Below are positions 50-64,000 of a stretch of 64,000 nt of DNA, one piece after another (position 1 is the stretch's first letter; every line of letters starts with the position of its first letter). The DNA is from Ascidia mentula (taxonomy: Eukaryota; Chordata; Ascidiacea; Phlebobranchia; Ascidiidae): assembly GCA_947561715.1 (NCBI GenBank), contig OX387202.1, positions 11,979,001-12,043,000 on the forward strand, given 5' to 3'. Under the pieces are notes generated by a model that ran no database searches, was not told where the DNA came from, and worked only from the letters and a program-made list of their open reading frames with translations. A program made the translations under genes and the position numbers.

Positions 50-3264
<3,215 letters not shown>

Positions 3265-23900: not shown

Positions 23901-26900
23901 TCACAGACTGCTGGGTCCCAAAAACGAGTAATTTGCGAAATGTTTGTCCGTTTTTCGGACAAAAATGCTTTCCCGACTATGCGATAAAATTAAGTGTATT
24001 AACCGGCTGGGTCCGGGATTTGAAAATTGGTCAATGTCCGGCTGGGTCAGGGTACCCGGATCCGGCGCAAGACGTCATTACTCAAAAGTCGAGTCAGTGA
24101 GTTATATGTATGGTGCAGCTAACACTTGACCTTGCCAAAATGTTTGCAAGGGCAGGTTCTCGTGCGAATGTAACAAAAAACACAAGAAATTCCCTAGCGA
24201 AGCCATTTCTGGTTCCCAGTGCTGAGCGGTCCGACTCCCAAGTGTTCGTACACATTGTGGTTTGTGTTGGGTAGATTAGTTAACTGGGCCGTAGCGAAAG
24301 GAACGGTTTTGACAGCCGTATAACAACAACTTGTCATCATGTCCTTTGTACTTTGTAATTTTGCGGGTTCCAATTCCTGTTTGAAAGCTACGTACGAGTC
24401 GGCAGTAGAACAGTAAGATGACTGACGCAAGTTCCACCGCCAGGCTTCGGAATCACTACCTCGCTACTTGAAATGTGATGATTGAAAATATCACCGTGAC
24501 ATTCTTGAACACTCTGTCAGGCAACATTCGTGGAATTACAGCTACCCCTCTTCCTCGGGAACAACTACTCTCGTTTTAGTTTGTTGATTGAAGCAAGAGG
24601 TGGAATGAGAAAATAGGAGGTGCTCGGTTCAACTCTTGCATGCGTGCCACCCTTTTGAAAGGCGGTATATTAATCGAAGTATAGTGTACGTGGCAACTTA
24701 CTAACCACATATATTTGAAATAGTTTCACTTAAGCATAAAGTAAGGTTCTTTCAAAATAGCGAACCTTACTTTATTTTTTCAAGCATTGTAGATCTGTCC
24801 CTTTCTCCTAATAATAAACATGGTGATGTCATAATTTTATGCGTTCCAAGATGTGTAACGTCAACATTGATTAAGTTTTATAGGGTGTCGCCAAACGTAA
24901 AGTGTCTTGGGGTCTTTTGCTACTGTTTGTCGTACATTTTAGTTTTATTCTGGTAAGTTTTGCCTGGCAATGTTCGGTTCATAAGTGGACCATGCACGTG
25001 GTTGTATACTAAACCTATTTGGTCGTTATCTTTTAAAATAACAGCATATTTACGTCATTACCCTAATAACGTCCTAAAGGATGTTGATGATTTTGAAAGC
25101 AAACCTTCCGAGAATGGACGAAAAGCTACAATCCCAGTTACGCACCAGGGAGCAATAAACGACATGTTATCGAAACCACCCCCTTTGAGTAAGAACGCGT
25201 TGGTATCGGATTTCCACATCCTGTACGTCTGCAGACTACGTATAACATCTATAAAAGTGTCTTGCCTTTCCCAGTACTGAGAACTGGCAACCACTGCAGC
25301 CAGACGACCTTTCTTGCGGCGTGTTGCGTTGCCTTTTAAAAGCCACAATCAATACGCGCTCCGTTCCTGTTCCGCAAAGGGCTTTTGTCAATTTGCGTTT
25401 AGAATAGGGGGGGGGGGGGGTTTCAAGTACCGCGCTGTATGAGCCTGACGTTTCGTTTGATCCTGATCAGAACACGCACGTGTGGAATATGGAACAGTCG
25501 TATAGGTTGTACGACAAAAATAAAAAAAATGGTTGCTTTCATAGCATTTCGTGCGACACTGTTTTTGTAAATATTGTAAATGAGTGTTTTTTTCCAAACA
25601 CCAAGAGTGCTTTTTTCAAATGATGTCACTTGTTTGTCGCGTGGGCCAAAGCAACAACCTTACCGCGAGGGTATTTCTTTGAATCTTCTACCTCGTAAAC
25701 ATTATTCATTACCCTGCCAAACAAACCGCTTTCGTGAATCCAGTCCTGCGTAATTCGTTTATGAGTTCCATCTGAATTTCTCGTACGGACTTTCTTCGTC
25801 GTTGTTCGCCGTAAATCCTTGTGATTCATGCAAAATGCGACAGCGCAGTACTTGCAGAACAAACCGCGTTACCACTGGTCAAATACCTGTTCGCGGGAAT
25901 GGCAAACAGGACGTCGGTAGCTGTTGTTCGCACTTCGTTGCGTATTGATTCGCGTTCTCGGCGCAGGACTTACGTCTGGGATATCGTGTGTACTGGGAAG
26001 TGGTATTTCCTATGACTGTGTGCTATTTGCTTCTGAAGCATCGGCATAGTCGTTTCACTATTGTCGGCCGTTTACATTGTAAGGCTAGATCACCGCTGTG
26101 AATTACTCGGAAACCTTTACACTTTAGGCGCAAGGAAATGGGATCAGTAATTGCGGGGTCGATTCACGGCGGTCAGCGATTTCGAGAAAACAATAGACTT
26201 GAATCGATTTGTTCGCGGAACTCCCGCAACCAGCCGAGGTTACTTAGTCTACAGACAGTATTTGTGTTAAATATTAAAATGAGAAGATCGTGAATCTTAT
26301 GTCAGTGGTAGGCGAGGTGTGTACTGTAGTGGATTATCAGGGCGTACCTGTGCACAAATTTTTATAAACTTACTTCAAGCGCCCCTCGCAACTAAAAACA
26401 ATACCCCATGTGTTTTAAAATCTAATCCCTATCTAAATACCATGACAACCAACCGCCGCCACTTCACTATCTGCCTTGATCGCTAACCTACCATTGTTCT
26501 GCCCCAGTTCCAGGTAATGTCAGCTGGGAATAGCGCCCGTTTATTCATCTATTTGCTAGTTCCCCCGCCTGCCCGAGCGAACAGGTTAATGTTCAACCCG
26601 GAGCTGGAAGTCAGTGTTCGCAAAAACTCTCTCGCTTTTCGTCGAAGCGCTACCTTTTCTCTCTGGCACGTTCTAAAGCTGATTCAGCCCTCTCTCGGTA
26701 CTCAGTCATTCATGAACCCCGAATGGGAAGGAGTGTGGTGAAATAGGACAAGGGCCGCCACTGCCGGTGGTTATTCCGAACAGATATGTAACAAACGCAG
26801 TTTGCTGTTAGAGGTGGAGAAATGATTGGAATGCGGCATCTGTGTTCATGTTGTTACTCGATTGAAGGTAGTTGTTCGTTCCAGTCTTGGCTAAGAATCA

Positions 26901-29900
26901 TTTATCTGGACTTTAGTATTAAATGTGGTTACATGCAGTGCAGGTATTGTGCGTATTCATCGTAACTCTTGTGTAACGATGTACTTTATTGTGATGCGAT
27001 CCATGTTAAGGTCACAATATTATTTGTTGGCGTTTTGTGTATTTTTTAACGGTTGTCTTTAAAAAGCATTTTGTATGCGACATATGGCAGCTAGTGAGGT
27101 CAAGGCCATGTTCTTTACAAATTGGCGCTTTGACTAGGCGGTTAGGCCGCGAGATGCGGTATTGTGGCGTCACAATCGCTGAATGGCGATGATCTGCGCA
27201 GATAGAGGCTGTAAAAACATCGCAGCGGGGATTTCGCAGAAGTGTGGTTTTTGCCATTGAAACTTCACACTGTACTGCTCTTGCCGCTAACCGTTTTACG
27301 TTGTAGAGTCTAGGGTAGAAATTGTATTTATAGACTGGGCAAAAAATTAACAATTTTATTGTTTGTAGAAACGAACGGTGACCACCATAGCAACCACTGT
27401 TTGGCTGTTGCCACAATCAACAACAACTGTCTTCAAGTCAAAAACGTCAACGCACTCTCGACGTCACAATCGTCTCCAACTACGTCATCAGGCATGGGCC
27501 CCTCAATCGCGTTCTTAAGTGGCACAGATACTTCCACAGTCGGCGCGCGGCAACAAATCCACTCCAGCTTCTGCCACTGTAACTGTCGCGCCAGAACTAT
27601 GACGTCACGACCTAAGACGTCACACCACAATCCCTTCGACAAGCGAATGTCTGATGAGGAGTGGCTGGAGCAGGACGACTTTGGGCTCGAGGCTACAACG
27701 TCGTTCGAACATTTCGAGCTATCCAAACGCGCCTATGCAAGACTAATCGCCTACTGTCATTCCAAAAAACTGCTCGCAGACATTTACACGAATTCGGGCC
27801 TAGAGGATGGCCAATGCGACTTCGTTTCCGCGACTGATTCCAGTGGATCCAGCGATGACAACGCGCCGTCATCTTCATTCGCGGGATTCAGCGACTCTAA
27901 CCCCGGTGCAAGCGACTTTGTTTCTGCCAGCGCTTTCGATTCGGCCCAAACCCTTTGTCACCTGGCACAGGTGTTCGAAACAGTCGACGAGTGTCCCTGG
28001 TATTGCGGCGCCATGACGGGCCAAGAAGCTAAAATGCGGCTCCGTGGGACCCCTCCTGGAACATTTCTTCTCCGTGACAGCAGCGATTCAAGGTAAACAT
28101 TTCTGTAATTTCTCCCGAGATTTTTCATAATTTATGAAAACGCAGTTTGGCACAAGTGTGTGTATTTTTTTTTGCGGAAGTAAATGCACATCAGCATTTT
28201 GACCTCCAGGGCAAGATAACGTTATAAATCTTGATAATATTCAAATCCAAAAGGCATTTGTGATGTAACCCAAACCCAACAATTTAAAATCAATTGTAAA
28301 TTCAAATGAGAGAGCCACGTAGAAATCTCTATTCAATTTCCTGCAGTCGTTTTCTATAGAGCCACTTAACCCTGGCCTTCCAAGAACGGTCGACTTTAAA
28401 TTGCGAGTGCGCGTTTCCAAGAAATTTGGCGCGACCCACAAGTGCTGCTTTTGTTGTAAACCGCACTGACCACTGCCAATCACACTTGACGCGCAGCTCA
28501 CTACGCGACGAGCATGTCCTTGTCGTGGAAGGTCGTTGACACATAACCAACGGAAATAAATTCGACCACGAAATGTACAGATTTGCATACTTCAATCACC
28601 ATTTCAGCCCACGCATGTTTGTATTTTTGTTCGCTAATCGGCTATAGGGTCACAACCTTTTGTGGTCCGGACGGTTTTTGTCAAAATTTCCCTTATTCGT
28701 GTAACAGCCCGACGTACTGTTCCATTTAAACGACCGCTGTCGCTTCCGCAGCAGCCACATTTTCCTAGCTATACCACGAAACCGATCCAAGATCGAAGAA
28801 ACGGCTTGAAAAAAAAAATCCGGATAAATACGAAAAACTACGAAACGCGGCGCAATTTCACCATAAAGGTCGCGTTTTAGTAAGAATGTCGAGTTCAATT
28901 TCCCGCGAGCTCTAGTCACGCGTGTGACCTTTGGTACCTGTCAAGGTCAATTCTCTGTGATCGTGGCCGTTGGACGTAAAATAACGACCGGGCTTTCGAA
29001 AGGCACGTTTCCGAGCTTTCTGAAACGTTTCTAGGAAACACAGGCCTCTCACCCTGGCATTCGAATTGCGTTTTGGATTTCGCACGACCGTGCGCTCTCA
29101 GGGCTCCAGACAACCGCGCCACAATGATCCAGCGTCCGCTCGAGTTTTCCAAGGATTGGAAAACCGCTGAAATTAACAAAAGCGAAGCACTTGGGTAATT
29201 GTAGCGGTTCGCGCCTCTGTTCTGGGAAATAACTTCTGAGTTTATGGAAAAACCGGCACTCGCCCACTGTTCGTGCGGCAATTATTGCGAACGAACTCCA
29301 TTACGTGGACTTGAGACGTGTCGCTCGTTCTAATTTACGACCTTGTAACTTTCCACCATGGCAAATGTTTAAACGAACCTTAGTTTACCGACAAGGAGTT
29401 GGAAATTACTGTTTGCAGGAGAAACCGCAGAGTGAATAGCGTTTCGAAACTTGTTTTAACAACGAGCTCATCTCGTAAACCCTCAACATAGCTTTCGTCG
29501 GACGAACTCCGCTTCTGTGCAAATTAAGCAATAGTGTATTTTATGAAGGAACGGCAAACAATAAAAGTCGAACAAACACCGGTGAATTGCGACCTTCGTA
29601 TTCAGAAGGGCGTGACAAAATAGGGTCGATTACGTGCAAGGTTAAAACTCCAAATGGATTTTGTTATTGATTTTAGGTTTCTATTATTACGACTTCCATA
29701 TATATTGTATTCATTTCCCAAATAGTGTAATGTGTTCAGGGTCGAAACGCCATAATTTTAAACATATGTGGTGGCAGAAATACGCATGTAAGTGCCCTCA
29801 AACAGCCCAAACTGTTCAATGCCCAAACTGTTGGCAACTGTTCAATGCACACTTTCTGTCCATTTTCCACAGTCTCTACGCCAGCTGTTAGTCACGACCG

Positions 29901-31815
29901 TAAACCAATAAAGTTTGCGCTGTTTCTCTCAGAGGGATCGAAATCAATCATCACGTCTTACGAATTTCCAAGAAAGCGATGGCAACAAGCTCATTAAACT
30001 GTTATTCCCTCCTTCTGCGGTTGCGCGCGTTATGTAACGTTGACTTCTAGGAACCTGGGCTGGCTAACATTAACGATCTCGCGTTACCACTACGGATTTA
30101 GATACTAGACACGCAATATATCTATCATCAGTTTTGCGGCGAGAATCGACTAGGTTATAGGCCATCGTTTCATATCGCTGTTAATATAGTTGGATGTTGC
30201 AGAATGTTTTTTCGTTTACGTGCTGTGGTATCTTGAATCACAGAGCTGTAGAACAAAGTTTCAAACTTCAAACACTGTTTTCGTGAATGCTTGACGATCG
30301 GCTTGTTTCATAACTAGAAATATAGCTTATCCGTTGTAAAATCCAAAACGTCTTTTTTCGTAGTAATATATCGAGAAAAGGTGATAAACGACGTCCCTCT
30401 CCCTCTACAGTACACAGTGGCCTTTACTCTAGTTTTTTCCTCTGAAAACCGTTGTTTGTGAATCTCTCGCTATGGTGGTTCGTGCCTAATGTCCTAACCA
30501 CGTTGAGGTATTCGCTGGAAAATCCGCAGATATTCCGCTTCCTTTTTCACAACGCCATTGAACCCGCATAACTCGTCGTTTCGACGAAGTCGGGAATGCC
30601 GCGACACGACAAAAGGCGCCCTCTTCTGGTCCGAACCGCAAATGCGTGGTGTAGATTTAAGGCTTGGCTGTCTGGCTCTCTGAGAGCTGCTGCTCTTTTG
30701 CAAATGACAGAACACTTCAGCTTGGGCGAGTTCGACGAAAAAAGGTTATTCTGTCCAGATTTTCGCGGAAAATGCGAGTAATGTGTTCCGTGATTTCAGA
30801 CTGCGTCGACATTAACACAGCGTGCTGTGCGGCCTTTGAGTTCTTAATAGACGACAACACATTCTTTAGATTAGATTTTCAAACTGCTTTTCCATTAAAA
30901 CACTGCGGCGCAATGTGGAAACAATTACATCGCTCACAATTACAACCAATTTTTTGAACAAAAATGTTTTGCCGTAAAAACTTCCAAAAGCGATTTTCGA
31001 ATGTTATGCAACAAAACTCAGTGTTACGTCATAAGGCCCTCAGGCTGTTGGGCCGGTCTCGGATCAAGATCTTATGTAACTCAACTTTACGTAACCTGTT
31101 ATGCAGCGTTCCTTCAATACAAAAATCTGAGAAAAAAAACTAGGTCAAAGGCATTCCTTTATATTTTTGCACATTTGCATTAGGTTGTGGACTAGGCATA
31201 AATACTAAACAATGAGAATTTTTAAATTTGTCAATATCTTTATAAGTGTTTTAAAGCTTGCACAAAATTTTATCATTTTCGTTTTTATCCAGATTCCTCT
31301 TCAGCATGAGCCTAATGACCCGACGCGGCGCTACAAGTATTCGAATCGTGTACGCCAAAGGAAGATTCGGTTTCGACTCGGAGGATGACGATTCCTCGAG
31401 CAGAAAGTCTTCCTCCGCGCACTCTCGTCGCGCCAGAAGCGACAGAACTAAATGCATCATCCGAATGATTCTTCACTACACCTCCTATCTCACCTCCAAA
31501 AACTCATCAATCGAAAATGCAAGAGACGCGCCGTCTAGCGGCTCCGAACGGTCGCCAAGCGAAACCTCTAGGAGTGCTAGCGGGCCAGATCGCAAGCGCC
31601 AGTTCTTGTGTTATTCGGTGGACAGGGGAACAAGGAAAGAAGTACCGATCCAACTGGTTCAGCCCATTAGCGGTGGAGTTCACAGCTTGCAGTTTATCAG
31701 CCGGGCGTGTCTGAACCGGCGGTATCGACTTTGGGAAAACCCCGCTTTAATATCCAGTCTTCCCCTTCCGTATGTGATGAAGAATTACGTACGGAAATAT
31801 CCCTATCCAGTATAG
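20913..31815 (+). CDS. CIS/SOCS2-like suppressor of cytokine signalling with long N-terminal region
   Basis: Three exons: 20913-21990, 27369-28092 and 31293-31815 (stop TAG). They total 2,325 bases, or 774 residues, in consistent phase. CIS/SOCS proteins bind phosphotyrosine through SH2 and recruit Elongin B/C and Cullin-5 through the SOCS box, damping JAK-STAT signalling. The SH2 domain straddles the exon 2/3 junction: WYCGAMTGQEAKMRLRG, then GTFLLRDSSDSR with the FLVRES-type Arg, then FLFSMSLMTRRGATSIRIVY. The C-terminus has a BC-box, SLQFISRACL, and a Cul5-box, LPLPYVMKNYVRKYPYPV, closest to CIS and SOCS2; KEVPIQLVQPISGGVHSLQ also matches CIS. About 590 residues precede the SH2 domain, unlike vertebrate CIS/SOCS2, and are Ser/Asn/acid-rich with His repeats. 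A Ser/Arg-rich insert lies in the second half of the SH2 domain. The frame in 21550-21990 is uncertain. A polyadenylation signal lies at 32153-32158. Confidence 0.85.
24736..24775. repeat. Perfect 14-bp inverted repeat (hairpin)
   Basis: Arms ATAAAGTAAGGTTC at 24736-24749 and its exact complement at 24762-24775 enclose a 12-base loop. It may be a tiny MITE remnant or a structured site; nothing decides between these. Confidence 0.6.
25407..25420 (+). repeat. Homopolymer of 14 G
   Basis: An uninterrupted G run stands out in AT-rich intron sequence. Its length may be unreliable in an assembly. Confidence 0.8.
28093..31292 (+). promoter_or_regulatory. Last SOCS intron with dense cluster of STAT-type sites
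   Basis: This 3.2 kb intron contains eight TTCNNNGAA motifs: 28378, 28415, 29029, 29220, 29966, 30045, 30580 and 30731 (first base given). Six of them fit the narrower form TTCYNRGAA preferred by STAT5-like factors: TTCCAAGAA three times, TTCTAGGAA twice and TTCTGGGAA once. By base composition about one site would be expected. CIS and SOCS genes in vertebrates are direct STAT targets, so an intronic negative-feedback enhancer is a fair inference. Confidence 0.55.
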
Positions 31816-33570: not shown

Positions 33571-38884
<5,314 letters not shown>

Positions 38885-40561: not shown

Positions 40562-43381
40562 TTACATGTGAAGAAAGTAGGCACCAAAATAGGCTTTCGA
40601 CTTTTCTGTGAAGAATCTTTCGGTTCTGACATTGCTGTTGACAGGCCTGACACCGATTTTGTCGTTTTCGTAAAGATAAAACACACCTCCATGGTACCCG
40701 CTATCCAACGAACGGCGACGATGCTGACTGTTTTGATGCGCTGTACCTCTGAAATAATCAAAATGAAACATTACGAAATAATTACTTTTTCCGTCTGTAT
40801 TTAATTTTTCCGAACACACAGTTTACTTTTTTGCCCATGTGTAGGTTAAAGTGTTTGATTAGTTAAATCCAGTAGTCTGGATGTACATTGTCGCATTACA
40901 TCTCGTAGATACTTGCATGTTTCGTTGACGCATAAACAGTAATTGAGCTTGTGACGTAATAGAATCACATGCAACAGCATTCGGCCGCTATGTTGTCCAC
41001 AATTCATTCTATTTGTGAATAGCTGCTGTGTGGACGTGTTTTACTTGACATTAAAGTTTTACTTAACAATACCCTCGACAATTACAAATATTACAGCACT
41101 AGGCTAAAATACGTGACAGTCATATCTTATACGGGGCGTGGAAAACAGGACTTACAACTTCTGTGTTGCGATAGAAGTCATCAGTACATTGTATTCAGTG
41201 AAGTCCCGAAACTTTACGGTTTCGTGTCCGGTTGAACGCAATCCTGCACTCCAGTATGTCACCTGCAAATGTTTACCATGCTTACAATTGAAATCAGTAA
41301 TTTTCAACACATAAATATACTTTTTTAGAAACAATTTAGTGCATGTTTGAGTATGGAGTATGGACATTATGTGTTTACAGGCGTGTTATTTGTACCTGAG
41401 AGTATACGTAGTAGTAGCCTTTAGCACGGATTTTAATGAACGTCCCAATGGGGGACTCCAAGTCGATAACATCTATTCGGATTGGTGGAAAAGTGCTCGA
41501 CGAATCAGAGCTCCACACAAAAAAATCGCCTGCAAAAATTCAATGTTGTTAGCCTAACCTTTTTGATATAAAAAATAACGTAGATTGTATTCAACGGAAG
41601 CTTCTTCTGCGGGAAAACTTTGAAAGGTTAACTCGTTGGTTGAATACAACGTTAGTTTCTGTGCCAGGAGGGCAGTTAAATATAAAAAAATATTGTGTTG
41701 CTTACCATAAGGGCACATCAAAACGACGCTGAATAGCATGACGCGACGAAAAATGTATTTTTTAGTGTGTGCAGCCATGCTCATAAAAGACACAAGTGTA
41801 AAAAAAACTTATTACCTGTTTCTGGCATCTGCATGTTATCACATATGGTTCTGTCGATTGAGCACAGCCTTGAGTTTCGGCCTCTGATCCCGACCAGATG
41901 AGCCCCGATAAAGGCTTCTGCAAAAACGTATAGGCATATAGGGATGCAATGTTTGCGAGACGTGTTATAGGAACATATACATAAAGCTACTGCCCCGTTC
42001 GCGTTGCAACAACGTGTACAAATGCTAGTATTTTAAAAAAACAGACAGTGCAATCGGAAAAAAATTGTAGCCTGTGATTATTTGCCTCTTTTTGTAGAAC
42101 ACAATCGTATTTCAGAATCAAAGTAATAAAAAACAATTGGCGAAATTTTGAGACTTGTACAGTAATTCTGATATACTTTTTTTCATCAACTAGGCGTAAA
42201 GACACACCTATTTACAAATAGGTCACATCTATCATTAATGTGTTCAAATTTACTTGCGAGAAAAGTCGTACACGCAGCAACAATGTAGGATTTTTCATTT
42301 CGGCAGAATACGTGAACTTAAAGCATGCACAGTATTCGGGGGCAACTATTAAGTGTGAACATACCTTGTAACGAACGTTCTGTGCGCCGAAGTGGTTGTG
42401 TTTCATTGTGACCAACCACCTTAAAACAAAAAAATTCAATTCCACTATAGGTATACTCAGTTAATCCTGTGGTTATTTATTAAACTTCGGTCAAATTTCT
42501 CAATTTGGCAAGCAATCAATTTTTTTTCCGAAATCGCGTGAATTGCGGATTTCTATTGTACGAAATATTTTGCCTGGCATAAATTTCAATGCACTGAACA
42601 TACTTTTACTACATCCACGTGGATTTGTTAGCAACGAATTCAGCGAAAATTACAATTACAGCAGCAGTCAGTATTCCTGTAGTATAATACCTCATCGTGA
42701 TGATCTTCAACAATTTGTGTCAATTCTTCTATCCTTTCTTCATTCTTTGTTAATTGGTTCCTTAACTCTGCGAGCTAAAGGTTAACAAAGCGGTTGTTAT
42801 AGTAACGTCGTGTTTTGATTTAAAATAAACATAAGATTAGTGCCGGATAAACTATTAGGCAAACAAGACTCATGTCTTAATTAGATCCACTCAAAAATCC
42901 AGGCAGCCGAAATAACTTGACACTCAGGATTAAAGACGTTAACGGTCAGCGCATAAAAAGTTAATTTCTTGATAAGTTCGACTTCAGAAAAAAGAATTTG
43001 TTGCTACGTTCTTGCGTTTTACCGTTATATTTTGGTGAGCGCAATATATGGGTATTTTGGGCAACTTTTAATATCTGATTTTTGGGCTAAAACAGAGCCT
43101 TAATCGAAAAAAAAACTACATAAAATGGATGGGTACGTTAAACCCAGGTAAGGCTAATATCTGGTATAAGAATACGGTTAATTTAAGAATGTGAAATACT
43201 ACACCACCTCCATGGATTGGTTATGGAGCTGCCAACCGTACAACAATCCGATAAGAATAAATACAGCAGCAATAACAAGTATCCCTCCAGTTTTGCGGAA
43301 AGCTCGTTTTTCAACATCTGATTGTTCAGCGATACTCGCGTAACCGCGCTTATCAACTTTTGTTGCTACGCGTGACATCAT
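40562..43381 (-). CDS. TNF-superfamily ligand (type II membrane protein)
   Basis: Seven exons in consistent phase: 43208-43381, 42691-42774, 42365-42419, 41816-41917, 41396-41529, 41156-41262 and 40562-40748. They give 280 residues. TNF ligands are trimeric type II membrane or shed cytokines that engage TNF receptors. Residues 1-30 are cytoplasmic and polar, and about 31-52 form the membrane anchor (GGILVIAAVFILIGLLYGW). A heptad-like stalk follows (LAELRNQLTKNEERIEEL), then a sequon NET and an Arg-rich stretch LRRTERSLQ with an R-x-x-R that a convertase could cut. The TNF homology domain begins FIGAHLVG and includes IKIRAKGYYYVYSQVTYW, VLMTSIATQ, GGVFYLYENDKIGVRP and the closing KAYFGAYFLHM. 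These match the A, D/E, G and H strands of the fold. The subfamily (EDA, BAFF/APRIL, TRAIL type) is not clear. The exon 1 donor is GTGGTG, weaker than the others. Confidence 0.88.
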
Positions 43382-45057: not shown

Positions 45058-45990
45058 TTACACGACGTCAAATCGGTTTGTCTTTATGATACTTTCGTTT
45101 GAGTTTAAAGCCTTTTTATAAGCGAAATTTTTCCAACCCATCGGCATTTCCGTTGCGTCTCGACAGCAACGTACGCAATGGCCACAAAGATCGTACAACA
45201 CAGCACATGTAATTGTGAGAGCAATTACGACAAAAGATACAGCAATTAATGCAAGGCAAGCATTTCCAATCGCGTCATCGTCCTTATGGTTTAATGTTGG
45301 TGAATCTGTAGCAGAGTTTACTTGATGCTGATGTTGTTTCAAATCCGATCGGTAATCTAAACAAATATATGATTAACGAAGGAATTAAAATATAGTGCAT
45401 CATCGCAATATGAAAATTCAGGCAGTTTAATAATTTTTGCAGCATGGTAGAGTTCTGCGTTGTTGACTGTCTGACCTCTTTTATCATGAGTCTAAGATGC
45501 TCCCTGAAACAAGGTATCCTCCTGCCGGCTATCAAATACGTTTGTTTTCAATTAAAACTATGCATCTTGCAAGTTTCCTAATGCACGATAAATTCCTTGG
45601 TGGAGCAGGTATGTGTTATCCCCTGGAGCTGTGCGCTAAGCGTAGTATGCAAATTTTCCTTACTTTTCTGGGAAGTGATACTTAACTGCTAACGTGTCTT
45701 ACCCTACGAGCTAGATAGGCCTGCATTCAATTATTTAGATTGAAAGGAAACCCGTTAACTTTGGAAATACAAAACCTTTACCAAACAGGAAGCCTTCCAA
45801 CAGCATCAACGAAGATCCCAGTGTAAGGCACCCTATTTATACCTCGCAAAACACTTACTATCATGCTGTTTCCCCAGCTTGAACAGACAATACTATGAAA
45901 TTGGGTCTGCTCTTGAATTACGTCACAACTTGGATACTGGAATTGTTTTACAACAGAACCCACCAACTCGAAAGACCTCAACAACGGCAT
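45058..45990 (-). CDS. Putative small single-pass membrane protein (partial model)
   Basis: The surest part is a last exon at 45058-45352. After the acceptor TTGTTTAG it encodes a polar stretch, a hydrophobic anchor (ACLALIAVSFVVIALTITCAV), then LYDLCGHCVRCCRDATEMP, whose cysteines could be palmitoylated, and a short basic tail to TAA. A second likely exon, 45859-45990, starts MPLLRSFELVGSVVKQFQ, contains two cysteines and ends at a good donor (ATA|GTAAGT). They do not join directly in phase; a short exon near 45600-45650 reading RTAPGDNTYLLHQGIY could bridge them but has a weak donor. No family is recognised. Confidence 0.35.
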
Positions 45991-50577: not shown

Positions 50578-51119
50578 AAACAGCTCCAAGATTATTAAAT
50601 CTGTAGCGTAAAAACTGTAGTTTGCCTCCATAAATTCTGTGTGTGGCATAATATGTATTGCTAACATTAGCATATACACTACAACAAATGTTTCAATAAA
50701 TTCTTGCAATCCCGTTTTGGGAACCATAGTGACAAAGATTCTATGGTTAACGTAGAACTTGTCATGTGTGATTTGGCAATACATTTTGCTATGATCAAAC
50801 AACAGGGATTATATTGCTCTAAACCAAAACTGGAAGATATAAACATGTTGTTTTAATTTTATTAAACCAGTTTTACATAAATACATACCCATGTTTAATA
50901 TGTAATAGTTTTTAAAGCATAGTCAATCAAATTATACCCAACCATTACAAAAAACTCAAAATAAATTCAAACAATAGCATTATGACGTCATAAACGTATC
51001 TTGGGAAGCCAAGTTGTTGGTTGCTGTGTGAGAAAATATATTACCCTCGTTTTGCATTCTAGTGTGCGGTTGTACATTACAAATTGTTGCAAAATCTCAT
51101 CTGTGTTGAACAGAAAATA

Positions 51120-54100
51120 ATGGATCACCGTTTCGAAAGTCAATTGTTGAAGAAGGAAAAAGCTGCGTGTCATAGTAAGGGCTATGACATGACAGAGAGC
51201 AAGTTTCTTGGTGGTGGGGCAGTTGGCCGGGTATTCTCGGCAAATGTGATGGCAGATACAATTGCCAACAAGGAAAAAATGAGAGCTATCAGTGAAACTG
51301 GGAAGCAATTAAAGGTTAAACAAATATATGTTGTAATATATTAACTTAATAACATAGGAATTTAAAATATATTAAACGTACTTTCTTTAATGGTTTTAAA
51401 TATTGTGCTAGGTTGCAATTAAGATTATTTATGCTGATCTTGGTGCCTCAAGACTCAGCAAGTTGGCCGAGTGTGTACCCAACGAAATCAGCATTTTGAA
51501 CAAAGTATTTGGACATCCTAACATTGTACGTATCTTTTATCGTTAGTATTAATCTGTAGTGTTTTAATAAAATATTTTTAGATAATGTTACTGGACGTTT
51601 TCGTCTCCGACAAGCGGATTTATCTGGTCACGGAGTATGCCGCAAAAGGCAATTTGAAGCAGGTTTTGCATTCTTTTGCTCATAAGAACAAAATTGTGCC
51701 GTACTTGTCAGAAACAACTGCCAAATATTACTTTAAAAAAATGTTATGTGGAGTGCAGAAGTTGCACGAAAACAACATCGCTCATCGGTAGGATTTAAAT
51801 TTGCAAATAAATAATCAAACATTTTTTAATACAAAATAACAATCGATCCAAAGGGATTTGAAGCTGGAAAACATTTTTGTATCGGAGGACGGAGAGGTAA
51901 AATTGGGAGACTTTGGCTATGCCACTGAGATTCCAGTGTTGGATCCAAACAAAAATATTCAAGAAAAGCTCCAGGCCATGCTAAATAGGCCTACTAACCA
52001 ATGTGGGACAGCACCATACATGGCTCCGGAGGTATTGATGAAATTTTGCGGATACAACGCTATCTTTGCAGATCTTTGGTCAATGTAAGTCGTCTCATAT
52101 CATCAACTTTTTTCAGTCCACTAACTATAGCTTATCGTTTAGTGGAATTCTACTTTTTGTTCTGGTTAATGGATATTTTCCGTTTCCCGGGAAAACTGTG
52201 GAAGAGGTTTTGGACCAATATCAGAGTTCAAAGAATAAAGAGCTTCCATTTCGTCAAAGCGTTTCTCTTGGTTGGTTATTGTCTTTAATTCTCAATATTC
52301 TGCATTCTAAACAATATTCTGTATTTTCTGTATACAGAGTGCAAGGATTTGGTAAATCAATTACTGAATATTAAATCCTTTCAAAGGCCTAATGTTGGCA
52401 CAATACTTCGTCATCCCTGGATGATGGGTTTGGATTTAACTTCTTTCTGTGTTCCGAGATATGTAAGTATCTTCAGCAACAGCTTATCACAATCAACAAA
52501 TTTAGTGTATTTAAAACCCAATATCATTTTCAGCCACTGTTACGCAGTGAACTGAAGACAATTGAAGAAAATCCATGTAAGTTTTGCAAAGTTGTTAAAG
52601 TAGGGGGACATTGCAATGTTTTTTTTGGATTACAGTGTACAAATATCAATCGGATTATGTCTCAAACTATCTCGTCCAGAGAAGAGATCTAATTAAAGAG
52701 CGTCGCGTGTTCTTTAAAAGCAAAACAATCCCTGGTCATCACACTGCTGACGAGTTTGGTATTCAAATACGCCTTCCTCGTCAAGATACAAATGGTACAA
52801 GTGTGTACGAGATATGGCGATTTACAACCAATCCCAAGGAAGTTGGTTGTAAAGAAATTGAGACCGACGAAAATACTTCACTTGATTTTTCGTCGATCTT
52901 TGCAAGTGGCGATGAAGAAGCAACTCTTGGGATGCCGAAAGTTACGCAAACCCTAGACGAGTTACCGCTGTTACAAGTATGGCAAAAAATCCGAGATGAC
53001 AATTTGCCGCCGTTCGCCAGCATTGAAAAATGCGTCCAACTTTGTAATACAGTTGATTTAGACGCAAACGAAAGCTGGCCATTAAGTTTTAATATTCCTC
53101 ACCCTGAGCAAGAGTGGGTTAAAATTGTTGGTTTTCCTGACAACTTCAGTTCAAATTCTACATTCAAAGTAAACGAGGATGGCATCCGTATGGTTTTGTC
53201 CCATGTTGGGAAATGCAGCATCGCACCCAAAGACGTCCTTGCAATTCCACTAACAGTTGATGCGAATAACAATAGTGTTATGCCAATGGATACTGAAATA
53301 ACAAAGAAACACAAAGTGGTCAGTGATTCAAATTTACTCAAAAATTTACCACAAATGCACAGACTCATGTTTGCTTGTTAATTCGAAGATTCCAAATGAA
53401 AACCGATGCCAATTGGGAGAACTAGAGAAATGCAAGAAGGTTGAAATAATTGAAAGTCTTCCATCTTCTTCCGCATACATTCCATATGGTGAAGTAGACA
53501 ATTTAGTTGCTAAATTATCTGTAACCGCCCACTTTGCATTTTGTAGGTGTTGCACCGAAAAAACCTGGTAACGTTTCTTCTTCGGATTTGCCGCGAATTC
53601 TACATCGACTTAACGAAGAAACTTTTCAAATTCCCACTCTCAAGAAAAAAGGAGACTCCCTCATTCCGTATCACAGCAGCCGGAAAATTGTCGACGATTT
53701 TAGAAAGCGGCAGGAGAAGGAGAAAATAAGAAGAAAAACACTTCCAGCATGCGCCTTTTACAAAGTCCGAGGTAAATTAATATTTTTTATAACAATTTGC
53801 TCGAATGTTTGGTGTTAAATCACGTAAAAACTGCTACCCTTTCAGGACAAGACCCAAAGCCTTCAAAAACCATCAAACCAAAGAATCTGAATCTCGAAAA
53901 GATACTTTTGAGGCCTGAAAACGGCGCTACAAAAATACCGGCACCCGTTTGTATTAATGAGGCCTTTAAAAGATTTGAAAGTATTCGCCAAAGAGAGTAT
54001 GTCCTCCCAGGTCGGTTTATGTCGTGTATTTTTTATTTAGGCATTAAATAAGATTTTCGTAAACCAATATTTTCTTCAGAACGCTTAAAACGAAAAAGAG

Positions 54101-57100
54101 TAAAACCGACGATCAACAAAAAAACAGGAGGTTTGTTGCAATGGTTTAAAGATAGAGTTTTCGGAAAGAAAAATAAATCTTCTGACAAGGCTGCTGTTGA
54201 TCCAGAAGTTCCCGGTCTATCTGCTGGTAGCACGGATAATGGAAAAGTAAGTCTAATTCACCTTGTAAATACTGAGGCGTTGAAAGTGTGAAACAAACGA
54301 CACTACTGTTTTACCAGCCAAAACCTGCGACCGACACAAAAGACAATGTGCTACAGTCGACGGACGGAAAAGATGAAGACAAAACAACATTCAAAGTAAC
54401 TTGTTATATTGACTTAGTATTTCTTCGGTAATTAATAATTTGTTGAACTGTTTGCAGCAACTGAAAACCAGCGACATTCATAAGATAAAAGACATAAAGT
54501 CCCGGTCAGATTTCTCAACTATAAGAGGTAATATTCCAGGTTTAATATATATTTTTCCGACGTTTACATGTGTATTGTTAGGTATGTTGAAAGGAAAATC
54601 ACCGATAAAGTGTAACAAAGTCAAGCACAGTGACCAGTTACACAACAGTGCTGAAATCGCATGTCCTGAAATTCCGGGTAAATAATTAATTACTTACTAA
54701 AGCCTATTTGACTTTCGTAAGGTTTTTGATGCTTACAAGATCATTTTGTAACATCTCCTCGCCGAGCCCAAACAAATAAAAAATATTTATTCAAATTGCA
54801 TGAAATCATATATGGACAAATCTCGCATGCATGGTGATCAGGGCTGACATCTGTCTGGAAGCAAAAATAAGAAATGAAAATAAAATATAAACCTAATTTT
54901 CCAACACAAACATTTTTTCGAAAACAACATTTCTTCTTTTAAATACATTAATTAACAGATTTATGACACAATTGAGTTTCAAAACTACACTATTTATAGC
55001 ATGCATAGTGTGTCAACAAATTCCTTGGTGAAATATTTTCCTTAAACATGATAAATATGCATGTACGGTGGTTTGGGAAAATCTGGCATTAACTCTTACT
55101 AGAATCAAGACAAACATGATGCACGTTACATACATATTCGTTTTTACAAATAAAGACAAAATCAGGAAAACGTATAGTAGAAAGTGCGATGTGGCGACTT
55201 CGATGCGAGATTGAATCGCACTGTTAACAAATAAATTACATTACTTCACCTTTCAAGAAAAATTTCATAATTTTTTTTGGCTGTTTTGTTTACAGGTGAT
55301 AAAAAGCAAACTTTACCACTGGTCTCTGAACAATTCAAAAGATGTGGCCTATTGGGTGCAATGAGTAATGAGTCTTCGCATGCTGTGGGAGAATTGTGCG
55401 AACCAGGGAAACATGAGAGGGTTGAAAGAAATAGAAGTCCTCCATCTTGCTCCACTTTGACTCCAGCAGGTACAGTTGACAATATATTTGCTATATAAAG
55501 TACGGTATATTTATTTTGGACTTTTCTAGGTGCTACAGCCGAAAAGTTTGTCAAAGTTTCGAGTTCGGAATTATCGCGTGTTCTTCGACGACCTAACGAT
55601 GAAACTTCTCAAATTCCGACTCTCAAGAAAACAGGAGACTCCCTCATTCCGTATCACAGCAGTCGGAAAATTGTCGACAATTTCAAAAAGCGACAGGAGA
55701 AGGAGAAAATAAGAAGAAAAACGCTTCCAGCATGCGCCTTTTACAAAGTTAGAGGTAAATTTTTATTCAAAACTTTTCTTCGGAAAAATTTGCTTTCAGT
55801 AAGAAACATAAAACAAATGCTACCTTTACAGGACAAGACCCAAAGCCGACAAGGAATATTAAACCTAAGAATCTAGATGTTGAAAAGATTCTTTTGAGGC
55901 CTAACAATGGTCCTACTAAAATACCAGCACCCGTTTGCATTAGTGAGGCGTTCCAAAGATTTGAAAGTATTCGCCAGAAGGAGTATATTCTACCAGGTCT
56001 GTTTATGTCGTATAATTTGACTCGAGCGAGGATTTATTTAAACACAGATTTTTTTGCAGAACGCCTGGTAAGAAAGAAGGTGAAACCCGCAATTGACAAA
56101 AAAACAGGACGGCTCTTAAATTGGTTTAAAAAGAAATTGTGTCGGAAAAAAAGAGAATCTTCTGACAAAACTATTGTTTCAAAAGTTAACGACGTATCTG
56201 CTTGTGCAGAGAATTATGAACAAGTATGTTAAAAACGAAAGTGCGTCACACTAATATTTTACAAGACCATCGCTATTTTACCAGCCTAAACCTGAAGCCC
56301 AATCAATTGAAAATTTCCTGCAGTCAGAGGAACGCAATAAAGACCAAACAATATTCAAAGTTAGTTTTTTTTTAATTTAGTGGGTCTAGTTGATCAGTCA
56401 TTTATTAATGATTAAACTGTGTTTAGCAACCATATTCCAATGACATCCAGAAGACAGAAAGCATAACAAATCGACCGGATTTTACAAATATAAAAGGTAA
56501 TATTTCTGCTTCATTGACAAAGGCTTTTCGACATTTTACATGTGTATAAAATTGTCAGGTGAGTCAAAAGGGAAAATATCTGCACCAAAACAAACCGGTG
56601 AGCAAAGCAACATTGAAATCCCCAGTCAAGAAATAATACCGGGTAACTAATTGATTTCTTCCATAGCCGATTTACCTTTCGTACAGTTTTTAAACTTTCA
56701 TCATCATTCAATTAAGAAAACTCACCATTTGCATTGTTTCCCGTTATTGCTGAAAAAATGCATTTCGTTGTGAAAAAATGTCATCTTGACCGTCTCAAAA
56801 TATGATAACTAACTAAAAAAATTAAACGACTTAATTTCCACGTAAACTTCAAACTGAACAAATGAGAAAACATAGACATTTTTCTCACTGTGTTTTGTTC
56901 AGGTGATGAAAATCAAATTCCACCTCTAGCCGTTGATGAAGAAGAAGTATTGAATTTTGTCATGGGGAAAGGTGATGACAGAAAAAAAAAACAATTCCCT
57001 GCTATATAAATGATTTTATTTCATTTCAGGATCAGCATTTCAGAACCACGAGACGAAAAACTCTGTTTCTTCTTTGCATTCTTCGACAAATTCAGAATCA

Positions 57101-57838: not shown

Positions 57839-57981
57839 AACTGTTCAAATCCATTTGCATTCAATGCAATTATTTTATATGTTGTATTATAGCACAACAA
57901 ATACAAAATCCACCGTCTGGTTGACGCTGGTAAAACATTTAACATGCGGAAACGTTTTTGCTCCACGATGCAACCAAAACC

Positions 57982-57987
57982 AATAAA
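57982..57987 (+). terminator. Polyadenylation signal of kinase copy 1
   Basis: AATAAA 144 bases after the stop codon. Confidence 0.5.
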
Positions 57988-58119
57988 GGAAACAGAAATT
58001 CATCACTGTACGGTTAGCAATTCATCATTTCATTCGTAAACATAGCGACCATGCATCACCACCGACGAAACTTACTTTAATAGAAATACAAATATTTGGC
58101 TTACATTAACTGAACCAAC

Positions 58120-58151
58120 GTCGGTGATTGGAAAAGTCGGTGATTGGAAAA
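58120..58151 (+). repeat. Two perfect 16-bp tandem units
   Basis: GTCGGTGATTGGAAAA occurs twice without a gap, at 58120-58135 and 58136-58151. No role is apparent. Confidence 0.85.
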
Positions 58152-59276
58152 ACGTTTATCTATATTTGAAATTAAACCCGTCGATTTGGAGAGAAATAAG
58201 TTTGGTTCCCACATCCTTTGCAGATGTTTGATTCAAAATAAAAATATTTCAATTATTATCAAACAATTAAATCGTAAACTGATCAGAAATTTCATTTCGA
58301 TTATTCAAATGAAGGTTTATTCATTGGTTCCAACACAAAGTGATTCAGTAACTAGAAAGCCTAAAGCCAGAATCTGTTCACTGTTATTACAAATACAAAC
58401 CTTGGTCGCACGTGAAAAAAAAAATTTCCTAATACTGTTTCAAATGAATAAATAAATATATGGCATCATAGTCTGGGCTGCCAGTTAAAAAAAGTATTAT
58501 CAAAAACGAGAATGCTGAAGAGTGAATCAGAACTGACTGTATTACCTCACCAAAGTTCATATTTTTTGAAAAGACAAGTAAATTTTACTAAATTAGTACT
58601 ATAATGACATTCGTTCAAAACCTTCAACTGATATATTATTGTAGCGCGTCCGGCCCAAAACGTGTCCTCCTTTTTAATGATGAAAACAAGGTAGCCTTTA
58701 AAACCATATAACACTAAACTCAAAACAGCTCCTATGTAAACAGGATTATTAAATCTGTAGCGTAGAAACTCTAGTTTGCCTCCATAAATACTATGTGTGG
58801 CATCATTTGTTTTGTTAATATTATCATATACTCTACAACATATTTTTCAATGAACTGTTAAAAAAACAGTTTGGGAACCATGGTGACACCGTTTCTTTGG
58901 TTAGATCTAGTCATGTGTTATTTGATAGTACAAAGTACATTTTGCTATGATTAAAGAAAAGGGACTATATTGCTCTTTAACCAAAACTGACAGATATAAA
59001 CATGTTGTTTTTATTTTAATAAACCAGTTTGACAAAAATACACACCCACGTTTCAATATGTAATAATTTTAAAGCATATTCAATCAAATTATACCCAACC
59101 ATTACAAAAAACTTAAAATAAATTCAAACAAGAACATTATGACGTCATAAACGTATCTTGGGAAGCCAAGTTGTTGGTTGCTGTGTAAGAAAATATATTA
59201 CCCTCGTTTTGCATTCTAGTGTGCGGTTGTACATTACAAATTGTTGCAAAATCTCATCTGTTTTGAACAGAAAACA

Positions 59277-62200
59277 ATGGATCAACGTTTCGAAAGTCAA
59301 TTGTTGAAGAAGGAAAAAGCTGCGTGTCATAGTAAGGGCTATGACATGACAGAGAGCAAGTTTCTTGGTGGTGGGGCAGTTGGCCGGGTATTCTCGGCAA
59401 ATGTGATGGCAGATACAATTGCCAACAAGGAAAAAATGAGAGCTATCAGTGAAACTGGGAAGCAACTAAAGGTTTAACAAATATATGTAGTAATATAGTA
59501 ACTTATCAACATTGGTATTTAAAATATATTAAACGTACTTTCTTTAATGGTTTTAAATATTGTACTAGGTTGCAATTAAGATTATTTATGCTGATCTTGG
59601 TGCCTCAAGACTCAGCAAGTTGGCCGAGTGTGTACCCAACGAAATCAGCATTTTAAACAAAGTATTTGGACATCCTAACATTGTACGTATCTTTTATCGT
59701 TAGTGATTAACAGTTATGTTTTAACAAATTATTTTTAGATAATGTTACTGGACGTTTTTATCTCCGACAAGCGGATTTATCTGGTCACGGAGTATGCCGC
59801 AAAAGGCAATTTGAAGCAGGTTTTGCATTCTTTTGATCATAGGAACAGATTTGTGCCGTATTTGTCAGAAACAACTGCCAAATATTACTTTAAAAAAATG
59901 TTATGTGGAGTGCAGAAATTGCACGAAAACAACATCGCTCATCGGTAGGATTTAAATTTGCAAATAAATAATCAAACATTTTTTAATGCAAAATAACAAT
60001 CGATCCAAAGGGATTTGAAGCTAGAAAACATTTTTGTATCGGAGGACGGAGAGGTAAAATTGGGAGACTTTGGCTATGCCACTGAGATTCCAGTGTTGGA
60101 TCCAAACAAAAATATTCAAGAAAAGCTCCAGGCCATGCTAAATAGGCCTACTAACCAATGTGGGACAGCACCATACATGGCTCCGGAGGTATTAATGAAA
60201 TTTTGCGGATACAACGCTATCTTTGCAGATCTTTGGTCAATGTAAGTCGTCTCATAACATCAACTTTTTTCAGTCCACTAACAATAGCTTATCGTTTAGT
60301 GGAATTCTACTTTTTGTTCTGGTTAATGGATATTTTCCGTTTCCCGGGAAAACCGTGGAAGAGGTTTTGGACCAATATCAGAGTTCAAAGAATAAAGAGC
60401 TTCCATTTCGTGAAAGCGTTTCTCTTGGTTGGTTGTTGTAGTTAATTCTCAATATTCAGCATTTCAAACAATATTTTGTATTTTCTGTATACAGAGTGCA
60501 AGGATTTGGTAATTCAATTACTGAATATTAAATCCTTTCAAAGGCCTAACGTTAGCACAATATTACGTCATCCCTGGATGATGGGTTTGGATTTAACTTC
60601 TTTCTGTGTTCCGAGATATGTAAGTATCTTCAGCAACAGCTTATCACAATCAACGCATTTAGTATATTTAAAACCCAGTATCATTTTCAGCCACTGTTAC
60701 GCAGTGAACTGAAGACAATTGAAGAAAATCCATGTAAGTTTTACAAAGTTGTTAAAGTAGGGGGACATTGCAATGTTTTTTTTGGATTACAGTGTACAAA
60801 TATCAATCGGATTACGTCTCAAACTATCTCGTCCAGAGAAGGGATCTAATTAAAGAGCGTCGTGTGTTCTTTAAAAGCAAAACAATCCCTGGTCATCACA
60901 CTGCTGACGAGTTTGGTATTCAAATACGCCTTCCTCGTCAAGATACAAATGGTACAAGTGTGTACGAGATATGGCGATTTACAACCAATCCCAAGGAAGT
61001 TGGTTGTAAAGAAATTGAGATCGACGAAAATACTTCACTTGGTTTTTCGTCGATCTTTGCAAGTGGAGATGAAGAAGCAACTCTTGGGATGCCGAAAGTG
61101 ACGCAAACCCTAAACGAGTTACCGGTTTTACAAGTATGGCAAAAAATCCGAGATGACAATTTGCCGCCGTTCGCCAGCATTGAAAAATGCGTCCAACTTT
61201 GTAATACAGTTGATTTAGACGCAAACCAAAGCTGGCCATTAAGTTTTAATATTCCTCACCCTGAGCAAGAGTGGGTTAAAGTTGTTGGTTTTCCTGACAA
61301 CTTCAGTTTAAATTCCACATCCAAAGTAAACGAGGATGGCATCCGTATGGTTTTGACCCATGTTGTAAAATGCAGCATCGCACCCAAAGACGTCCTTGCA
61401 ATTCCACTTACAGTGGATGCGAATAACAATAGTGTTATCCCAATGGATACTGAAATAACAAAGAAACACAAAGTGGTCAGTGATTTAAATTTACTCAAAA
61501 ATTTACCACAAAATCATAGACTTATGTTTGTTTAATATTTCGAAGATTCCAAATCAAAACCGATGCCAATTGGGAGAACCGGAGAAATGCAAGAAGGTTG
61601 AAATAATTGGAAGTCTTCCATCTTCTTCCGCATATATTCCATATGGTGAAGTAGACAATTTAGTTGCTAAATTATCTTTAACCGCCCACTTTGCATTTTG
61701 TAGGTGTTGCACCGAAAATAACTGGTAACGTTTCTTCTTCGGATTTGCCGCGAATTCTACATCGACCTTACCATGAAAGTTCTCAAATTTCTACTCTCAA
61801 GAAAACAGGAGACTCCCTCATTCCGTATCACAGCAGTCGGAAAATTGTTGAAAATTTCAAAAAGCGGCAGGAGAAGGAGAAAATAAGAAGAAAAACACTT
61901 CCAGCATGCGCCTTTTACAAAGTCCGCGGTAAATTAATATTTTTTATAACAATTTGCTCGAATGTTTGGTATTAAATCACGTAAAAACCGCCACCCTTTC
62001 AGGACAAGACCCAAAGCCTTCCAAAACCACCAAACCAAAGAATCTGAATCTTGAAAAGATTCTTATGAGGCCTGAAAACGGCGCAACAAAAATACCGGCA
62101 CCTGTTTGTATTAATGAGGCCTTTAAAAGATTTGAAAGTATTCGCCAAAGAGAGTATGTCCTCCCAGGTCAGTTTATGTCGTATATTTTTTATTTAGGCG

Positions 62201-64000
62201 TTAAATAAGATTTTTGTAAACCAATATTTTCTTCAGAACGCTTAAAACGAAAAAGAGTAAAACCGACGATCAACAAAAAAACAGGAGGTTTGTTGCAATG
62301 GTTTAAAGATAGAGTTTTCAGAAAGAAAAAGAAATCTTCTGACAAGGTTGCTGCTGACCCAGAAGTTCCCAGTATATCTGCTGGTAGGACGGGTAAAGGA
62401 AAAGTAAGTCTAATTCACCTTGTAAACACTGAGGCGTTGAAAGTGTTAAACAAACGACACTACTGTTTTTCCAGCCAAAACCTGCGACCGACACAAAAGA
62501 CAATGTGCTACAGTCGACGGACGGAAAAAAAGACGAAACAACATTCAAAGTAACTTGTTATATTGACTTAGTATTTCTTCGGTAATTAATAATTTGTTGA
62601 ACTGTTTGCAGCAACTGAAAACCAGCGACATTCATAAGATAAAAGACATAAAGTCCCGGTCAGATTTCTCAACTATAAGAGGTAATATTCCAGGTTTAAC
62701 ATATATTTTTCCGACGTTTACATGTGTATTGTTAGGTGTGTTGAAAGGAAAATCACCGATAAAGTGTAACAAAGTCAAGCACAGTGACCAGTTACACAAC
62801 AGTGCTGAAATCGCATGTCCTGAAATTCCGGGTAAATAATTAATCACTTACTAAAGCCTATTTGACTTTCGTAAGGTTTTTGATGCTTACAAGATCATTT
62901 TGTAACATCTCCTCGCCGAGCCCAAAGAAATAAAAAATATTTATTCAAATTGCATGAAATCATATATGGACAAATCTCGCATGCATGGTGATCAGGGCTG
63001 ACATCTGTCTGTAAGCAAAAATAAGAAATGAAAATAGAATATAACCCTAATTTTCCAACACAAACATTTTTTCGAAAACAACATTTCTTCTTTTAAATAC
63101 ATTAATTAACAGATTTATGACAAAATTGAGTTTCAAAACTACACTATTTATAGCATGCATAGTGTGTCAACAAATTCCTTGGTGAAATATTTTCCATAAA
63201 CATGATAAATATGCATGTACGGTGGTTTGGGAAAATCTGGCATTAACTCTTACTAGAATCAAGACAAACATGATGCACGTTACATACATATTCGATTTTA
63301 CAAATAAAGACAAAATCAGGAAAACTTATAGTAGAAAGTGCGATGTGGCGACTTCGATGCGAGATTGAATCGCACTGTTAACAAATAAATTACATTACTT
63401 CACCTTTCAAGAAAAATTACATAATTTTTTTGGCTGTTTTGTTTACAGGTGATAAAAAGCAAACTTTACCACTGGTCTCTGAACAATTCAAAACATGTGG
63501 CCTATTAGGTGCAATGAGTAATGAGTCTTCGCATGCTGTGGGAGAATTGTGCGAACCAGGGAAACATGAGAGGGTTGAAAGAAATAGAAGTCCTCCATCT
63601 TGCTCCACTTTGACTCCAGCAGGTACAGTTGACAATATATTTGCTATATAAACTACGGTATATTTATTTTGCACTTTTCTAGGTGCTACATCCGAAAAGT
63701 TTGTCAAAGTTTCGAGTTCGGAATTATCGCGTGTTCTTCGACGACCTAACGATGAAACTTCTCAAATTCCGACTCTCAAGAAAACAGGAGACTCCCTCAT
63801 TCCGTATCACAGCAGTCGGAAAATTGTCGACAATTTCAGAAAGCGACAGGAGAAGGAGAAAATAAGAAGAAAAACGCTTCCAGCATGCGCCTTTTACAAA
63901 GTCAGAGGTAAATTTTTATTCAAAACTTTCTTCGGAAAAATTTGCTTTCAGTAAGAAACATAAAACGAATGCTACCTTTACAGGACAAGACCCAAAGCCG
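59277..64000 (+). CDS. Large serine/threonine kinase, tandem copy 2 (cut by window end)
   Basis: Exons: 59277-59471, 59569-59682, 59739-59944, 60011-60241, 60300-60427, 60495-60619, 60691-60733, 60793-61472, 61546-61645, 61704-61928, 62003-62167, 62237-62403, 62475-62549, 62612-62681, 62736-62831, 63449-63622, 63683-63907 and 63984 onward. All kinase residues seen in copy 1 are kept (VAIK, HRDLKLEN, DFG, APE), and no break is seen, so this looks like a second working gene. Protein changes are few, but five fall within a short loop in exon 3: SFDHRNRFVPY here against SFAHKNKIVPY. Tail block A is complete, with one codon lost in its fifth exon; block B is cut off after its second exon. Introns match copy 1 in length to within a few bases, including the 73-base intron at 61473-61545 that carries a stop. 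Confidence 0.88.
61546..62831 (+). repeat. Kinase tail exon block A (copy 2)
   Basis: The same seven exons as 53389-54677. Its second exon (61704-61928) reads SQISTLKKTGDSLIPYHSSR, which is nearer to block B of copy 1 than to block A of copy 1, hinting at sequence exchange between blocks. Confidence 0.85.
63449..64000 (+). repeat. Kinase tail exon block B (copy 2, partial)
   Basis: Exons 63449-63622 and 63683-63907, plus the first bases of a third at 63984, match block B of copy 1 (55296 onward). The window ends inside it. Confidence 0.85.

Follow-up and report, generated by a model that had tools for sequence, protein, structure and literature searches.

The 64-kb window analyzed here (64,000 nucleotides of Ascidia mentula contig OX387202.1; all coordinates below are those of the window) contains a SOCS gene on the forward strand, the last intron of which carries a dense cluster of STAT-type sites. 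The coding part of the gene, as far as it bears on this cluster, is laid out as follows.

27494..28092, + strand: SOCS coding exon 1, with the first in-frame ATG at 27494 and an alternative ATG at 27599, its end set by a GT donor and the splice phase; it encodes the N-terminal region and the start of the SH2 domain, ending ...GTFLLRDSSDS-AG
28093..31292, + strand: last intron of the SOCS gene, 3,200 bp, GTAAAC...ATCCAG (GT-AG), phase 2; the proposed STAT-responsive enhancer region
31293..31815, + strand: SOCS coding exon 2, encoding the remainder of the SH2 domain and the C-terminal SOCS box, stop codon included

Exon 1 lies within an open frame (27314-28093) that extends upstream of the ATG at 27599 to the in-frame ATG at 27494, and exact splicing of 27599-28092 to 31293-31815 yields an uninterrupted protein of 338 residues. 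This protein has both hallmarks of the SOCS family, a central SH2 domain (PF00017, residues 134-188, E 2.6e-8) and a C-terminal SOCS box (PF07525, residues 294-331, E 5.2e-6), each over its Pfam cut-off; the SH2 domain is split by the intron, which has a G+C content of 0.424. The best scores among the matches of the protein in the PDB were 64.5 bits for SOCS2, 52.5 for SOCS3, 49.5 for SOCS1, 45.4 for SOCS6, and 35.1 for SOCS4, and a CISH-named chain is absent from the 37 matches. The predicted product places the gene in the CISH/SOCS1-3 type (type II) of SOCS genes, nearest to SOCS2 among those compared, an ordering taken from PDB matches and not from a tree. The initial annotation had described a CIS-like SOCS gene. 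The SH2 domain, the SOCS box, and the best matches to SOCS2 bear out the family and fit the class, but they do not separate CIS from SOCS2 or from a common precursor of the two, and because no CISH-named chain is among the 37 matches, "CIS-like" is fair as a class label only.

STAT-type sites in the SH2-splitting intron

Sites were counted with a loose motif, TTCNNNGAA, and a strict motif, TTCYNRGAA. The intron contains nine loose sites, six of which also fit the strict motif.

28378..28386: strict STAT-type site, TTCCAAGAA, forming a pair with 28415 (37 bp start to start)
28415..28423: strict STAT-type site, TTCCAAGAA
29029..29037: strict STAT-type site, TTCTAGGAA
29220..29228: strict STAT-type site, TTCTGGGAA
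29966..29974: strict STAT-type site, TTCCAAGAA
30045..30053: strict STAT-type site, TTCTAGGAA, 79 bp from 29966
30580..30588: loose site, outside TTCYNRGAA, TTCGACGAA
30731..30739: loose site, outside TTCYNRGAA, TTCGACGAA, 31 bp from 30762
30762..30770: ninth loose site, TTCGCGGAA, in the context ATTTTCGCGGAAAAT

The initial annotation had reported eight TTCNNNGAA sites, six of them fitting TTCYNRGAA, inside the last intron of the SOCS gene. All eight are present where it placed them, the six strict ones are those at 28378, 28415, 29029, 29220, 29966, and 30045, and the exact splice bounds enclose the whole set; the site at 30762 had been missed. The context of this ninth site is one that we take to resemble an E2F site.

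Excess of sites over the window

The strict motif occurs six times in the intron and just as often in the remaining 60.8 kb of the window (p 1.7e-6), and it ranks first of 384 degenerate palindromes in the intron. When the intron was simulated with Markov models of orders 1-3 (400 runs each), the mean number of strict sites was 0.28-0.34 and no run held more than 4, as compared to the 6 seen. When the 12 strict sites of the window were placed uniformly, six were reached within 1.68, 2.4, and 3.2 kb in 0, 5, and 26 of 20,000 trials, respectively. Similarly, of 983 random degenerate motifs that have 9-16 hits, 2 pack six into 1.68 kb. Six sites within some 3.2-kb stretch of the first 50 kb are found for 3 of the 384 degenerate palindromes, namely, the strict motif itself and two whose fixed bases are A or T throughout. 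Sites that miss TTCYNRGAA by one base show no such enrichment in the intron (3 vs 6.4 expected), and a comparison of exact with near-miss sites between the intron and the rest of the window gives a Fisher p of 9e-6. The strict share among loose sites is likewise higher in the intron (6/9) than elsewhere (6/40; p 0.004). The site cluster is more than chance because of these strict sites. Some of the counts used intron bounds that were a few bases off (28094-31294), by which the exact-site counts are unaffected.

For the loose motif, the rest of the window predicts 2.1 sites in the intron (Poisson p 3.8e-4), and the same Markov simulations gave a mean of 1.59-1.71 with a maximum of 7 in any run, as compared to the 9 seen; the figure of about one expected site in the initial annotation was thus slightly low. 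Among 576 spaced palindromes, TTCNNNGAA is the most enriched in the intron. When the distance between TTC and GAA half sites in the intron was varied from 0 to 15 bases, spacing 3 accounted for 9 pairs and the 15 remaining spacings for 29 in total (mean 1.9).

A number of other origins for the sites were considered and rejected. The 2-base spacing of heat-shock elements is not raised in the intron (TTCN2GAA, 1 seen and 1.4 expected), nor is the 4-base, STAT6-like spacing (TTCN4GAA, 2 seen and 1.4 expected). No repeat family reported in 26000-33000 covers several of the sites, and the intron has no other match within the window at E 0.01. Base composition as a cause was discarded as well, the Markov simulations of orders 1-3 having failed to produce the observed counts. 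A pattern scan for relatives in one contig collection, by its description not one of animal genomes, returned 24 matches, of which 0 were confirmed.

Motifs for potential partners (GATA, ETS, NF-kB, E-box, AP-1, cAMP response element [CRE], and IRF) are all near expectation in the intron. The Runx motif TGYGGT is found 7 times, with 3.3 expected; Runx is a possible STAT partner in blood cells.

Region upstream of the coding exon and other features of the window

Further loose sites are found on the 5' side of the gene.

24527..27241: six more TTCNNNGAA sites, 5' of the SOCS coding exon, 1 of the 6 strict (25106)

Over 24000-28092, half-site pairs at spacing 3 number 6, with a mean of 1.8 at the 15 other spacings, and the excess of loose sites has a Poisson p of 0.010 for a region that was picked after the sites had been seen. 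This upstream excess is weak, and our main claim does not depend on it. No two of the six sites lie within 110 bp of each other, i.e., there are no tandem TTCNNNGAA pairs of the CISH type in 24527-27241, on the assumption that the promoter is located just upstream of the coding exon. Three CRE-like GACGTCA motifs were noted by eye in 27460-27622, one of which (TGACGTCA at 27600) overlaps the alternative SOCS ATG at 27599; an input from cAMP/ATF is possible.

Elsewhere in the window, the following were observed.

1652..2438, + strand: exons resembling a PP1-type protein phosphatase by eye, with a Metallophos match (E 8e-11) for 1652-1876; the 38-residue piece 2325-2438 has no Pfam match
34856..36895, - strand: exons of a Copine gene, 35718-36146 (E 4e-21) and 34856-35038 (E 6e-11), and, by eye, probably another at 36827-36895
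41387..41539 and 45061..45372, - strand: possible TNF-family ligand, with a weak TNF match (E 0.022) under the Pfam cut-off; a separate open frame resembles a transmembrane segment by eye and has no Pfam match
50587..55848 and 58741..64000: tandem duplication, 95.7% over 5.3 kb with an 8.15-kb step, carrying a repeated coding gene; shorter stretches inside 50587-64000 match one another at 78-86%, and the open frames 52599-53378, 57014-57835, and 55759-56229 have no Pfam match over a family cut-off

A putative STAT-responsive feedback enhancer

Judging from its sequence, we consider it fairly probable, though well short of certain, that the intron is a homotypic STAT-site enhancer that drives negative feedback on its own SOCS gene; what the sequence shows is a set of sites, in excess of the window background, within a SOCS gene, and from this we infer that STAT binds, that the intron is an inducible enhancer, and that a feedback loop results. 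In such a loop, cytokine receptor and JAK activity would lead to the phosphorylation of STAT, and STAT dimers would bind the six TTCYNRGAA sites (28378-30053), with the three looser sites perhaps helping. The bound dimers would raise transcription from the SOCS promoter, and the SH2 domain of the SOCS protein would then bind phosphotyrosines of the receptor complex while the SOCS box recruits an E3 ligase, by which the signal would end.

The initial annotation had gone one step further and proposed a STAT5-driven intronic feedback enhancer. A STAT feedback enhancer is still the best reading, and the strict cluster exceeds the window background; STAT5 is not distinguished from most other STATs. 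According to PMC3564941, TTCNNNGAA is taken by STATs other than STAT6, and because most STATs take it, the motif cannot name the STAT. Of the STAT5 peaks in mouse erythroid cells described in PMC5521770, the majority have a central TTCYXRGAA, and ∼15% are located in promoters, the others being intronic or intergenic. TTCCAAGAA, which is found at three of the strict sites, is listed under STAT5 peaks of human T cells (PMC3907443), and two pairs of TTCNNNGAA in the CISH promoter are described as making that gene a target of STAT5 (PMC13006268). As sea squirts are reported to have a STAT5/6-type protein, statb, together with a single socs1/2/3/cish gene (PMC3296744), a STAT5-type partner outside the vertebrates is possible.

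Several points weigh against an intronic STAT enhancer. Up to ∼10% of perfect gamma-activated sequence (GAS) sites in the mouse are reported as occupied at a time (PMC3564941), and most sites would therefore be idle; moreover, the vertebrate CISH precedent is a promoter and not an intron. The strict sites are spread across 1.7 kb, except for two pairs (37 and 79 bp apart). The background for all site statistics is one 64-kb window and not the genome, and the widths of 1.68 and 2.4 kb were chosen from the data. Among the degenerate palindromes, CTCWNWGAG is a close runner-up (3 vs 0, p 3.0e-6) that has no recognized meaning here. Spacing 3 between half sites is high outside the intron as well (over the window without 24000-28092), with 34 pairs vs a mean of 23.3, and spacing 1 equals it at 34. 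A mild spacing-3 preference is thus general in the window and the intron adds to it, so that part of the spacing effect is not intron specific. Finally, TTCNNNGAA is only 21st of 18,720 gapped hexamers in the intron, at the top of which stands ATT-5-CGA (both strands, 11 seen vs 1.1 expected, p 3.5e-8), a hexamer for which no factor was recognized. A set of 2,200 gapped hexamers, each with 36-56 hits, was compared over the first 50 kb: 120 of them have at least 9 hits somewhere within 2.4 kb, and 424 within 3.2 kb; because so many cluster likewise, the loose cluster alone is unconvincing, and by itself it is not exceptional.

These counts of gapped hexamers bear on one alternative, namely, that we are looking at a chance local excess, in which some nine-base motif clusters somewhere in 64 kb and a meaningful one got noticed. 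For the loose motif this is quite possible: when 49 loose sites were placed uniformly, the observed maximum was met in 4,919, 238, and 1,328 of 20,000 trials for 1.68 kb (6 sites), 2.4 kb, and 3.2 kb (9 sites), respectively. The strict cluster is a different matter. It, too, has its equals among the random degenerate motifs, but these are the two mentioned above, its recurrence under uniform placement is rare at all three widths, and it sits in the one gene class that would be expected to have it. Taken over both motifs, chance is in our view an unlikely explanation, although one to be taken seriously. It is less probable still that a different DNA-binding protein, one whose core motif is identical or overlaps, uses the sites, e.g., a BCL6-type repressor the strict ones, E2F the one at 30762, and others those reading TTCGACGAA, or that the sites have mixed functions. 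BCL6 and the STATs have TTCYNRGAA-like sites in common (one paper title pairs STAT5 and BCL6 binding), and the context of the ninth site is E2F-like, as noted; however, six of the nine sites match the STAT5 consensus TTCYNRGAA, and a BCL6-type repressor would, we assume, compete for STAT sites and not replace STAT.

The intron might also be an internal promoter or an enhancer for another transcript or a neighboring gene, such as the TNF-like candidate near 41-45 kb, and not mainly serve the SOCS gene. The CpG observed/expected ratio in 500-bp bins of the intron rises to 1.66 vs 1.01 for the window (the latter, which points to an invertebrate, being unlike the ratio of about 0.2-0.25 typical of vertebrates), which fits such a role, and STAT enhancers are described as able to work from 60 kb away (PMC2877871). 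On the other hand, none of the three open frames scanned, out of the five of at least 90 residues in the intron, has a Pfam match; a search for RNA genes gave nothing at the gathering threshold of Rfam, and ARAGORN, run with the bacterial code, gave neither a tRNA nor a tmRNA. SOCS genes, moreover, are classical STAT targets, and we regard a different target as the least probable of these alternatives.

Comparison with known STAT-responsive elements

One of the closest counterparts to the putative enhancer in the SOCS intron is found in Drosophila socs36E, for which PMC3238392 describes a promoter region with 19 putative STAT sites and a first-intron piece with STAT92E sites that serves as a STAT reporter (10xSTAT), in which the 441-bp piece is repeated five times to give 10 potential sites. 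In both animals, STAT or STAT-type sites are located within an intron of an invertebrate SOCS feedback gene. As described there, however, the fly gene is a SOCS5 homologue and not of the CISH/SOCS2 class, its element is in the first intron whereas the Ascidia sites are in the intron that splits the SH2 domain, and the fly element has been tested experimentally whereas the Ascidia cluster is known from sequence alone. With the vertebrate CISH promoter, as presented in PMC13006268 and PMC5521770, the cluster shares a related gene class and the same core motif, the feedback there being STAT5 driven; the difference is that CISH has pairs in its promoter, whereas the Ascidia sites occupy the last intron and, apart from one strict pair separated by 37 bp, the strict ones are more widely scattered. 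A similar arrangement is reported for the intronic STAT enhancer of Drosophila dome (PMC2877871), likewise a gene of the pathway, with five sites clustered in 700 bp; dome, however, is a receptor gene and not a SOCS gene, and its sites are denser and have been shown to act in vivo.

As a cluster of STAT sites for feedback on a SOCS gene, the putative element is accordingly of a known kind, with an intronic precedent in Drosophila, and would imply no new mechanism. No paper describing an intronic STAT cluster in an invertebrate gene of the CISH/SOCS2 class was recognized among the titles and abstract openings listed from an open-access collection. One might go on to suppose that a dense STAT5-type cluster in an invertebrate gene of the CISH/SOCS1-3 type predates the vertebrate genome duplications, i.e., that the STAT-to-CISH switch is ancestral and that its elements later moved to, or became concentrated in, the CISH promoter, but we find this doubtful. 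If the SOCS intron is indeed a STAT-responsive feedback enhancer, it would be a candidate for use as a STAT reporter in what is probably a non-model animal, and the STAT-to-SOCS loop would be wired by clustered sites in the CISH/SOCS2 class too, besides fly socs36E. It would then help to ask whether STAT-to-SOCS wiring is inherited or has been repeatedly rebuilt.

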